From: Massilia sp. H-1
GTDB taxonomy: Bacteria; Pseudomonadota; Gammaproteobacteria; Burkholderiales; Burkholderiaceae_D
Assembly: GCA_024703915.1 (NCBI GenBank)
Contig: CP087969.1
Span: 1,240,001 to 1,304,000, forward strand
DNA length: 64,000 nucleotides
Direction of reading: 5' to 3'
Part shown: positions 33,010 through 39,134 of the stretch, piece by piece
How positions within the stretch are numbered: the first letter of the stretch is position 1
How the letters are laid out: the number at the start of each line of letters is the position of its first letter
Position numbers and translations under genes: made by a program
The notes under the pieces: model-generated
Databases searched by the model: none
What the model was told of the DNA's origin: nothing
What the model saw: only the letters and a program-made list of their open reading frames with translations

Positions 33010-34860
33010 ATGCGTACCCTATTCTCATCAGTCAGAATGTTTTCCACCACGCGTCCGGCCATGTGGGTCGGCCTGCCCCTCTCGGTTGCTGTCGGGCTGG
33101 TGTTTTACTTCACCACCGCCAGCTCGATCGAATCGGACTCGCGCCAGCGCTTCACCGCACGCGCAAAACGCCAGCAACATCATCGTGGCGCGGATCAAGT
33201 CAGAGCCTCTCGACGTGCTGCGCGGGACCGCCAGCATTTTCCAGACCAGCTATCCGCTCACCCGGCGCCAGTTCCACGGCTATGTGAACGGGCTCGAGCT
33301 GCCCAGGAATTTTCCGGCAATCGAAGCGATCAGCTTTGCCGAATACGTCAAAGATGCCGACCGCGAAGCGTTCGAGCAGCGCATGAACCGCGAACTGACG
33401 ACCGACAATGACATGGGCCAGCCGTTCAAGATCCGTCCGCCCGGCCGACAAGTGCGCCGAGTACAGCGTGCTGACCTTCATCGAACCTCTCGACCTGGGC
33501 AACAAGGCGGTCGGCTTCGACCTGCAAGCCAATCCCCTGCAGCACGCCAACCAGATCGCTGCTGCGCGACGGCGGCCAGCTGATTTCCTCGGGCATGCCG
33601 ATCGCCGCCATGGCCGGACGCAACCGCACCGGGCTGGGCATGCGCCTGCCGATCTACCTGCCGCACGCACCGACCAATACCATGCAGGAGCGGCGCGACG
33701 CGTTTGTCGGCTCGGTCGGGATCGCCTTCTCGGTCGACAAGCTGGTGCTCGGCGTGATCGACGAAATGCCGGTCCGCAATGTGCGCATGACCCTGGTCGA
33801 CAACGCGGTCAGCATCGAAGGCAAGCGCGGCCGCATCCTGTTCGACACCGAAATGGAAACGGCGGCCAGTCGCGCCCGCCGCTGCTGCGTGGCGGGCGCT
33901 TTTCGAAAACGCTGCCGATCGACTTCAACGGCCGCGCCTGGGACGCCACCTTCAGCGTCGACGCGCGACCTGTACACGGGTTTCGAAGAATTCGTGCCCT
34001 GGCTGGCGATGCTGGCTAAGCTTCATCAGCACCATGCTGCTGTACGCGCTGTTCCACACGCTGACCTCGTCAGCTTGCGCAAGGCCATCAAGATGGCCAA
34101 GGGCATGACGCGCGAACTGCGCGAGAGCCAGGCCAAGCTGCAGCAATCGCACCAGAACCTGCGCCGCCTGGCGGCCCACGCCGACCAGATCAAGGAAGGC
34201 GAACGCAAGCGCATCGCGCGCGAGATCCACGACGACCTCGGGCAGAACTTGCTGGCGCTGCGGATCGAGGCCGACATGCTGGCCACCCGCACCCACGAAC
34301 GCCATCCGCGCCTGCACACGCGGGCCCGCTCGACCCTGTCGCAGATCGATGCCACCATCAAGAGCGTGCGCCAGATCATCAATGACTTGCGGCCCAATGT
34401 GCTCGACCTGGGCCTGTCGGCCGCCGTCGAATGGCAGATCGCCGAATTCAAGCGCCGCACCGGCATCGCCTGCGAGCTGATCGATGAACCGAAGGAAGTG
34501 CTGCTGGGCGACCACGCGGCCACGGCCTTCTTCCGCATCCTGCAAGAGTCGCTCAGCAACATCGTGCGGCATGCCCATGCCACCAGCGTGCGGGTCGAAC
34601 TGCGCTCGAACGGCCGCCTGCTGACCATGACGGTCAGCGACAACGGCATCGGCCTGGGCGCGCGCGAACGCTGCAAGGTCGGCTCCTTCGGCCTGGTCGG
34701 CATCGAAGAGCGCATCAATATCCTCGGCGGCAGCTTCTCGATCACCAGCACCGACGGCGAGGGCACCACCGTGTGCGTCTCGGTGCCGCTGCACGCCGAA
34801 CCCAACCATCAAGGAACGCCCGTCATGACGGCGCGCCACCATCACGAGGTCACTGTCTGA
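33010..34860 (+). CDS. Membrane sensor histidine kinase, CHASE-type sensor with NarX-type kinase
   Basis: About 615 residues. A first membrane helix ([20 protein letters not shown]) leads to an extracytoplasmic CHASE-like domain ([65 protein letters not shown]). A second helix ([20 protein letters not shown]), a coiled coil and the HisKA_3 motif follow ([27 protein letters not shown]), then the ATPase domain ([40 protein letters not shown]). Breaks near 33170, 33445, 33560, 33885, 33963 and 34015 (GCTAAGC). No response regulator follows, so its partner is elsewhere. An alternative in-frame ATG is at 32968. Confidence 0.88.
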
Positions 34861-35138
34861 CAAGCCTCTCGCATTGTCCTAAACAGACGCGGCGGCTTGG
34901 AGAAAGCGCGCTGTCGGACCTTGCCATATGCACTAGGAATAAACCATTTTGTTTGTTGAGTTAAGTCAAGTAGACCAGGGCGCACCGGCGCACCATCCTC
35001 ATCTAGTAACGGAAATCAATGTAATTAGGAAAAATTTTCCAGCTAGATACAGAAAGGAGGACGCCGGAAGCAGCACGCAGCACACGCCATACCAGGGATG
35101 CAGTCACCACAATCACACTCTAAAAAAGAGGTCCTATC
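34861..35138. other. Regulatory region upstream of the YCMLRPG repeat gene
   Basis: Non-coding, clearly more AT-rich than the flanking genes, especially 34930-35050, so it probably contains the promoter of the repeat protein. An AAAGGAGG string at 35053-35060 is a perfect ribosome-binding site but is followed by no long frame. The gene's own start is preceded by AAGAGG at 35125-35130. Confidence 0.45.
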
Positions 35139-35852
35139 ATGAAAAGCAATGCCACCTATAACGCGATCGCCGCGCTCGACCTGGAGCCGATCAAGACCAA
35201 ACTGATGCACGTCGCCTCGGGCGAAGGCTGGAGCCGGGCGCGCGCCGACGCGATGGACACCGAGTACCGCCGCTTCCTCTACCTGATGCATGCGTTCCCC
35301 GACGAACAGACCGCGCCGACCGTCGATGTCGACACCTTCTGGCACTACCATATTCTCGACACCATGAAATATGCGGCCGACTGCGAGCGCGTGTTCGGCC
35401 AGTTCATGCACCACTATCCTTACCTCGGCATGGAAGGCAATGGCGACGAGGGGGCCGAGCAGCGCGGCGCCGAGCGCATGCGCGAACTGTATGAAGCGAC
35501 CTTCGGCGAAGACTATATCCGCGCCGAAGCGTACGGCGAGGCTGCCGCCAGCGCCTACTGCATGCTGCGCCCGGGCGACAAGCAGGCGGCTAAGCGCCCA
35601 AGCCACGTATTGCATGCTACGACCGGGAAACACCAAGGCGCAGGGCGCGCAAGCGGCCTACTGCATGTTGCGACCGGGAGGCAAACCGGCCGACGGTGCG
35701 CAAGCGAGCTACTGCATGCTGCGACCGGGCGACAAGCAGGCTGAGGGCGCGACGCGGCCTACTGCATGCTGCGCCCCGGCAGCAGCGCAGCGCTGGCCGC
35801 GGCGGCCGCGCTGGCCACGGCCGCCTGCCACGACACGGCAGCGGCGATCTGA
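35139..35852 (+). CDS. GRDP-like domain protein with five YCMLRPG repeats; possible RiPP precursor or Cys-repeat protein
   Basis: About 237 residues. Residues 1-130 form a compact domain with VDVDTFWHYHILDTMKYAADC followed by FGQFMHHYPYLGMEG and ATFGEDYIRAEAYGE. This WHxHILDT..YA.DC..FG.F.HHYPY pattern is that of bacterial glycine-rich-domain-like (GRDP/DUF1399-type) proteins. From residue 140 on, the block YCMLRPG recurs five times at 17-residue spacing with a GAQA linker, ending in an Ala-rich tail and a final Cys. Two single-base errors (35589-35595 GCTAAGC; 35747-35752) interrupt the repeats; correcting them gives an exact 17-residue period. No signal peptide or membrane helix. Each unit offers Cys, Tyr, Arg and Pro in a fixed context, as in multi-core peptide precursors, but no modifying enzyme is adjacent. 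Confidence 0.82.
35556..35780 (+). repeat. Five tandem 51-bp coding repeats (YCMLRPG units)
   Basis: The Tyr codon of each unit starts at 35556, 35608, 35659, 35710 and 35760. Spacings of 52, 51, 51 and 50 bases become exactly 51 when the +1 scar at 35589-35595 and the missing base near 35750 are corrected. Synonymous changes between units (TAC/TAT, CTG/CTA/TTG, CGC/CGA) show the peptide, not the DNA, is being conserved. Confidence 0.85.
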
Positions 35853-38939: not shown

Positions 38940-39134
38940 CACCGGGGTCAGACCTCAATTCTGCAATTCGGGGTCAGACCTCAATTTCACACGTTCTTGG
39001 TGCCGCACGCGGCCACCGGGGCGATTTGTCGCGCTCACATCACAAATCCATAGCAAGCGCAGGGCATGCCACAAAAGTCTTGCAGAATGGAGGTCTGACC
39101 CCGAATTGCAGAATTGAGGTCTGACCCCGGGGTG
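38940..39134. repeat. Large inverted repeat with paired GGGGTCAGACCTC motifs
   Basis: The arm at 38940-38988 carries GGGGTCAGACCTCAATT twice, separated by a CTGCAATTC spacer. The arm at 39089-39134 is its near-exact reverse complement. About 100 bases lie between the arms. The element fills the gap between the reductase stop and the convergent acyltransferase. No transposase frame lies inside, so it looks like a non-autonomous extragenic repeat that could also terminate both transcripts. Confidence 0.85.

Follow-up and report, generated by a model that had tools for sequence, protein, structure and literature searches.

The stretch of Massilia sp. H-1 DNA analysed here (64,000 nucleotides; the window) carries on its plus strand a gene for a protein in which five exact YCMLRPG units stand behind a module of the PF07173 (GRDP-like) type, which we term the WHxH module. 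The protein belongs to a family that is undescribed in the open-access literature searched, in which the tail behind the module is an array of short units, each usually made up of an Ala, an aromatic residue or His, and a Ser or Cys, in that order. We tentatively favour, with somewhat less than even confidence, the reading that it is a soluble precursor-type protein with many cores, probably induced at low oxygen, in which the WHxH module acts as a domain that handles peptide cores. This multi-core reading draws on the strict Ala-[YFWH][SC] motif, on arrays that switch while their modules stay nearly identical, and on the conserved residues of the module; it also draws on the Cys tails or adjoining Cys peptides, the fusions to TIGR04222 and the C39 exporters found with distant homologues. 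A neighbouring kinase gene, an FNR-type box and the exchange of Ser and Cys between arrays are new beyond what a preliminary description of this DNA had noticed.

The WHxH module and its unit array

The features of the window are as follows.

33022–34860, plus strand: gene for a CHASE–HisKA_3 sensor histidine kinase, its frame broken in the window assembly
34956–34969, no strand assigned: predicted FNR-type box TTGAGTTAAGTCAA, agreeing with 8 of the 10 positions of TTGATNNNNATCAA
35139–35540, plus strand: WHxH module (PF07173-like), helical, from Pfam match, alignment and predicted structure
35556–35607, plus strand: putative core unit 1, YCMLRPG-DKQ, preceded by Ala; exceeds the 51-base period by one base
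35608–35658, plus strand: putative core unit 2, YCMLRPG-NTK, Thr before it; shifted frame
35659–35709, plus strand: putative core unit 3, YCMLRPG-GKP, Ala before it; shifted frame
35710–35759, plus strand: putative core unit 4, YCMLRPG-DKQ, preceded by Ser; in the shifted frame and one base short of the period
35760–35852, plus strand: putative core unit 5, YCMLRPG-SSA, Ala before it, with the Ala-rich end and the stop; first frame again

The open reading frame runs on the plus strand from an ATG at 35139 to a stop at 35850–35852. The frame of this ATG and stop contains units 1 and 5; units 2–4 lie one frame off, flanked by two opposite one-base slips. The Tyr codons stand at 35556, 35608, 35659, 35710 and 35760, that is, 52, 51, 51 and 50 bases apart, so that the exact 51-base spacing given in the preliminary description holds only if the two slips are allowed for. 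The slips are probably assembly errors, because the genome (G000; 5.84 Mb in one contig, an indel-rich assembly) has a completeness score of 48%, because neighbouring frames are broken and because the array frame of the nearest relative is not. The tRNA-synthetase-like and kinase frames upstream of the array gene are both interrupted, and the CHASE part of the kinase is matched at G000:C1:1273022–1274014 with two stops. The nearest relative (L002), which shares 81% identity with the window protein in the best segment, has nine units in an unbroken frame, eight of them YCMI and one YCML. A tandem-repeat scan of the window also found a near-perfect 26-base tandem duplication at 39080–39129.

Against PF07173 the window module scores 25.6 bits, above the curated cut-off of 22.7, and the protein is therefore a GRDP-like match by that cut-off; the five exact repeats behind a GRDP-like domain reported earlier are indeed present. 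The match covers model positions 100–143 of 143 only (the last 44). Four of five members scanned pass the cut-off and the fifth scores 21.9. Scans of five array proteins gave no NCBIfam match and no BURP match in Pfam. The module is conserved, as had been claimed for its WHxH domain: eight residues (W68, H69, T75, Y78, C82, H91, H92 and P94) are invariant in 71 aligned relatives. A set of 64 divergent sequences was chosen for matching W[H/R] and [H/R]H. Each of the residues D, W, H, Y, C, H, H and P is kept in at least 61 of them, or in at least 60 with G included; before that selection, WH occurred in 57 of 58 frames and HHxP in 55 of 58. Judged from the alignment, the conserved residues look like an active or metal site. 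The module is predicted to be all-helical (mean pLDDT 85, lower around residues 91–100), a fold search of it against the PDB gave no match under E 0.001, and a sequence search for a solved homologue found none.

One scan of genome contigs yielded 129 relatives, of which the best 80 were kept, corresponding to 78 distinct loci whose titles are mainly Massilia, Duganella, Janthinobacterium, Rugamonas, Pseudoduganella and Telluria. These 78 loci (from the best 80 of 129) encode 105 module proteins, with one in 53 loci, two in 23 and three in two. Module matches, distant types counted in, were found in 122 of 294 sampled genomes of the window's family, representing 13 of 44 genera, and in 18 of 299 genomes sampled across the phylum. 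With the terms used, the open-access literature searched contained no description of the family or of the domain.

Tail counts cover 103 of the 105 module proteins, two being omitted for a short tail or the lack of an anchor; the window protein is not among the 103. Their tails contain 949 [YFWH][SC] pairs compared with 144 expected from shuffled tails, and a chance repeat is thus rejected. The consensus unit A-[YFWH]-[SC] is present in all 103 tails, with Ala at −1 in every per-protein consensus (103 of 103) and Gly or Ala at +2 in 95. At the level of single pairs, 918 of the 949 carry the preceding Ala and 812 carry Ala plus Gly or Ala. The window array has Ala before three of its five units and Met at +2. 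The A[YFWH][SC] triplet has no occurrence in the module parts of the same 103 proteins. By per-protein consensus (n = 103) the aromatic or His position is Tyr in 55, Trp in 18, Phe in 17 and His in 13, and the next position is Ser in 71 and Cys in 32. Ser and Cys types hardly mix, with one stray [YFWH]S in each of 4 of the 32 Cys-type tails. A C-terminal [FLM][YF]xxRPx[LI] motif accompanies all 71 Ser-type arrays (L002–L079), compared with 2 of the 32 Cys-type arrays. In 11 more divergent proteins (L135–L146) with 92 pairs, Ala precedes the pair in 65 cases, Ser in 17 and other residues in 10, and all 88 Cys of the same chains directly follow an aromatic residue or His.

The distribution of Cys bears on whether the repeated Cys could serve as a thiol or metal buffer. 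Such a role would suit the confinement of tail Cys to the motif (290 of 296 in the 103 proteins) and the frequent C-terminal Cys of distant homologues, but Ser takes the place of Cys in 71 of the 103 arrays, 70 of which have no tail Cys at all. A Cys-only metal array is therefore rejected as the general function, and the metal-binding alternative offered in the preliminary description fails as a general rule; any buffer role we regard as very improbable.

The units also seem to be maintained as peptides. Between adjacent units the ratio of nonsynonymous to synonymous change is 0.12 at +2, 0.29 at +3, 0.13 at +4 and 0.40 at +5; positions −1 to +1 are set by the search pattern, and the zero nonsynonymous change there was therefore left unused. 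Selection on the unit peptide, earlier argued from codon changes in the window, is thus supported by sequence comparison at positions outside the definition used to search for units. At the same time, the type of unit changes readily. Placing the seven unit types on a module tree of 113 rows, a tree with few columns and many unresolved forks, requires at least 26 changes, and the type can differ even between paralogues that are nearly identical: in L071 (YC/FC), L079 (YC/WC) and L020 (YC/FC), for example, the modules hardly differ but the arrays do.

Repeat number, for which a comparison between homologues had been proposed, ranges from 2 to 18 units per protein among the 103 relatives and reaches 24 in L152. 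Unit spacing is free, between 6 and 30 residues, and varies inside 86 of the 103 proteins, which led us to reject a structural solenoid. The tails are low in complexity (27% Ala, then Ser, Gly, Thr, Val, Pro and Gln), and in the predicted model of a full-length relative the tail lies mostly below pLDDT 50, with a low-confidence short strand at each unit; the low-confidence model is consistent with disorder. Such properties suit the main rival to the multi-core reading, an unmodified multivalent scaffold in which a docking motif or sticker in a disordered chain would gather a partner or other WHxH modules at low oxygen. A sticker would tolerate freely varying unit number and spacing and the exchange of Tyr, Phe, Trp and His or of Ser and Cys, and the scaffold agrees with the lack of a known enzyme among common neighbours. 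The Ala before the aromatic residue is, however, strict for a plain sticker, and a scaffold leaves unexplained why distant modules are paired with Cys-rich small peptides and C39 exporters. We consider it somewhat unlikely.

The neighbouring kinase and the FNR-type box

A CHASE histidine kinase gene is adjacent to the array gene, on the same strand, in all 76 syntenic loci that were scored out of 78. A class I tRNA synthetase gene is common to 75 of the 78, so these loci cannot be counted as independent. Outside this synteny, nine of ten scored loci have the kinase gene next to the array gene, divergently transcribed in all nine, the exception being L140; several of these loci share one context by reading, and L143, missed by the gene caller, also has the kinase. 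None of 23 distant module loci shows the adjacency. CHASE and HisKA_3 domains were seen in two intact relatives. In genomes that lack a module match the CHASE query still finds other CHASE proteins (best E 2.6e-26), so the query proves no strict co-occurrence of kinase and module. On the other side of the array gene, a gene reading like a diguanylate cyclase is found in the divergent loci L135, L136, L144 and L145.

The persistence of this adjacency, co-directional in the syntenic loci and divergent elsewhere, would be expected if the array protein gave rise to a peptide signal that the neighbouring CHASE kinase senses, a role that could be combined with the favoured multi-core one. We nevertheless think a kinase-read signal very unlikely: no export route was recognised, the link could simply mean that the kinase regulates the array gene, and known bacterial CHASE ligands include cytokinins (PMC7072313).

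An FNR-type box agreeing at 8 or more of 10 positions lies upstream of 96 of 105 array genes, compared with 86 of 1,050 shuffles, and in set 2 upstream of 12 of 12, compared with 13 of 120; the shuffles preserved only base composition, and because the sequences share ancestry the counts are not independent. Over the whole of the set-1 loci (1.51 Mb), the 300-base intervals upstream of these genes contain 72 of the 116 TTGAN6TCAA sites and 32 of the 44 TTGATN4ATCAA sites. Upstream of the kinase genes the signal is weaker (16 of 69 regions at 8 or more of 10), and among distant modules none of 24 has a box at 9 or more, with 7 of 24 at 8. The array box agrees with the FnrL consensus (T/C/A)TGA-N6-TCAA given in PMC4634722, and Fnr1 of Herbaspirillum seropedicae is described in PMC5934665 as recognising a canonical-like palindrome. 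The predicted box is an FNR-type site in a promoter region and as such qualifies as a predicted FNR-regulon site. Its presence suggests that the array gene is probably switched on at low oxygen.

Modifying enzymes and distant homologues

Representatives of the 20 commonest gene clusters around the 78 array loci were Pfam-scanned. A known RiPP or other peptide-modifying enzyme was not found among these 20 clusters, six of which had no Pfam match, and no RiPP-type exporter or protease was recognised among the common neighbours. A known RiPP enzyme is thus rejected as a common array neighbour, and the linked radical SAM, MNIO, YcaO or cyclase enzyme envisaged in the preliminary description was not seen among these common neighbours. 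Genome-wide, PF05114 (MNIO) is present in 39 of 55 genomes; it had no match at E 1e-5 in six that bear arrays (G404, G200, G366, G257, G348 and G293), and in the positions listed none lies within tens of kilobases of an array. The SPASM radical SAM is absent from 11 of 14 genomes with a strong module match (present in 3), and a LanC-like cyclase from 12 of 14 (present in 2). MNIO, SPASM and LanC enzymes are rejected as the general modifier on these counts, and the array protein is, by the tests made, not a burpitide, an MNIO substrate, a lanthipeptide or a SPASM peptide. Many family genomes have an MNIO-type gene some 54–104 kb away from the array gene (for example, G000:C1:1197159–1197851), which is perhaps ordinary synteny.

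We also considered a RiPP-type precursor with many cores that would rely on a modifying enzyme from another part of the genome. A constant leader-like domain with switching cores is what such a precursor would look like, a YcaO gene is present in 27 of 27 module-carrying genomes, and an azoline-forming enzyme would accept the exchange of Ser and Cys. However, YcaO is not among the common array neighbours, 10 of 16 genomes of the family that have no module match contain it too, and it gives a single match in 23 of the 27 carriers, which we take to be possibly the enzyme of a ribosomal-protein pathway; this argues against an enzyme encoded elsewhere, as do the genomes that lack MNIO, SPASM or LanC. 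We find this possibility distinctly improbable. The layout works like that of a RiPP precursor, but we have not filed the protein as one because no linked enzyme was found. The multi-core precursor of the preliminary description therefore stands in part: repeat number, selection, the conserved domain and the Cys peptides and C39 exporters near distant homologues speak for it, and the lack of a linked known RiPP enzyme speaks against it.

Distant homologues without arrays place the module close to Cys. Of 45 such proteins, 36 were scored as having at least two Cys near the C-terminal end, or 35 after discounting L201, in which the Cys are not in a tail; the endings are of the CWHDC..RCWHAC, HACHAP..CACR.PGACK, GQCSSC[ED]T-like and Gly-Cys types. 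Where the module protein has no Cys tail, a Cys-rich small open reading frame adjoins it in L166 (two proteins), L201, L202 and L203, in L204 a GG peptide in which two Cys follow the GG, and in L162 a separate TIGR04222 protein with a Cys-Gly end (L162:5028–6418, minus strand; E 1.9e-42); L157_7 has a Cys-tailed paralogue, and L149 and L151 have neither a Cys end nor an adjoining small Cys peptide. L161, L163 and L164 encode fusions of the WHxH module with TIGR04222.

The five strongest stand-alone modules (L166 and L201–L204) adjoin small peptides, four of them Cys-rich and four with GG: L166 has three GG-leader Cys peptides, L202 and L203 have one each, and the Cys-rich peptide of L201 is without GG. 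A C39-type ABC exporter and an HlyD-like gene are present in L166, L202 and L204, the C39 assignment resting on Pfam in the first two and on 48% identity in L204. The two L166 proteins served as queries against 394 genomes of the order they belong to (matches in 25, of which 21 were inspected further), and the result consequently favours the L166 type; in L216, one of the loci retrieved, gene calling gave no module frame. The small-peptide rule is loose: it picks out 4 of the 5 stand-alone loci but also 26 of 429 other genes in loci without such a neighbour (35 of 500 overall), so that single cases mean little, and the matches beside module genes in L157_7, L170 and L214 look spurious. The small peptides could also be ordinary bacteriocins, with the module as their immunity protein.

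Two of these loci are compact. L166:2777–7998 (minus strand) contains three tandem GG-leader peptides with Cys at about every fourth residue, two WHxH proteins, an HlyD-like gene and a C39-peptidase ABC exporter, and no other modifying enzyme was seen there. L202:7269–12070 (plus strand) has in one row a TauD-type oxygenase, a WHxH protein, a Cys-rich GG peptide, an HlyD-like gene and a C39 exporter. A TauD-type oxygenase gene adjoins the module gene in L155 and L220 as well as in L202, and the L202 peptide has a weak CefA-like match, below its cut-off.

In the multi-core reading that we favour, the N-terminal WHxH module would handle the cores and the tail would be a string of them. A core usually opens with Ala, followed by an aromatic residue or His and then by Ser or Cys; the next residue is mostly Gly or Ala. 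The module would hold, and might itself chemically modify, the Ser or Cys of each core in its own chain; acting on the cores in cis, it would need no separate adjoining enzyme gene. In other bacteria the module is accompanied by a separate Cys-rich small peptide or by its own Cys tail; the array would be a fused multi-core precursor, and the module could work in cis or in trans. With no known enzyme as a common neighbour and three enzyme families not general, the module is the simplest candidate to hold or modify the cores, by a chemistry that would have to accept both Ser and Cys after an aromatic residue or His. We infer that the gene would be expressed at low oxygen and that the module would bind the cores; the cores might also be modified, cleaved into peptides and exported, and the final role may be that of a signal or effector coupled to the neighbouring kinase. 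Against the multi-core reading, most arrays are of the Ser type yet the peptides beside stand-alone modules are Cys peptides, common array neighbours include no recognised RiPP-type exporter or protease, and no fold of known function was found for the module. Control by low oxygen would be odd if the module acted like an oxygen-dependent oxidase.

A bolder proposal, which we hold to be unlikely, is that WHxH is a new self-contained peptide-maturation enzyme. It would act in trans on Cys-rich peptides, often in the company of GG leaders and C39 exporters, and in cis on its own C-terminal cores. The Oxalobacteraceae would have built from it an autocatalytic multi-core system, under the control of oxygen and a CHASE kinase, in which a single chain carries as many as 24 cores.

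If the module matures cores, the family would represent a new class of peptide maturation that enzyme-centred genome mining would miss, since an array gene encodes both substrate and module and has no known enzyme for a neighbour. The exchange of Ser with Cys and of Tyr, Phe, Trp and His across natural arrays would amount to a ready-made substrate scan, and the FNR-type box and the kinase link offer a physiological context that can be tested in common bacteria of soils and plants. If the tail is a scaffold instead, the family offers a clean natural series for how a short motif is kept and copied in a disordered chain.

Comparison with known systems

The module passes the curated model PF07173, whose plant members are glycine-rich domain proteins; it differs from plant GRDP in that only the last 44 of 143 model positions match and in that the tail of the window type is an aromatic-Ser/Cys array. 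Loci with GG leaders and C39 ABC exporters, known for bacteriocins and RiPPs, resemble the family in holding distant stand-alone WHxH proteins (L166, L202 and L204), whereas array genes have no GG leader and no exporter was recognised beside them.

The MNIO-associated TIGR04222 and Buf_EGKCG/oxazolin precursors are alike in their Cys-bearing low-complexity tails or 17-residue repeats (PMC12452194), and WHxH is itself fused to TIGR04222 or, in one locus, adjoins it. Unlike those precursors, the arrays are not made of EGKCG units, have no DUF2063 or DoxX partner among their common neighbours, and occur without an MNIO gene within tens of kilobases in the positions listed or, in six genomes, without any MNIO match.

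Fused burpitide precursors, the BURP copper peptide cyclases of plants, differ in several respects. The five array proteins scanned have no BURP match and the module has no PDB fold match under E 0.001; the array has Ser or Cys after the aromatic residue, and its modification is a prediction. In addition, the burpitide cyclase studied is copper-based and dioxygen-dependent (PMC12186524), whereas the array gene seems tuned to low oxygen. The likeness lies in the layout: burpitide precursors combine a conserved His-containing domain with aromatic-containing cores in one chain, and multi-core precursors dominate (PMC12186524).
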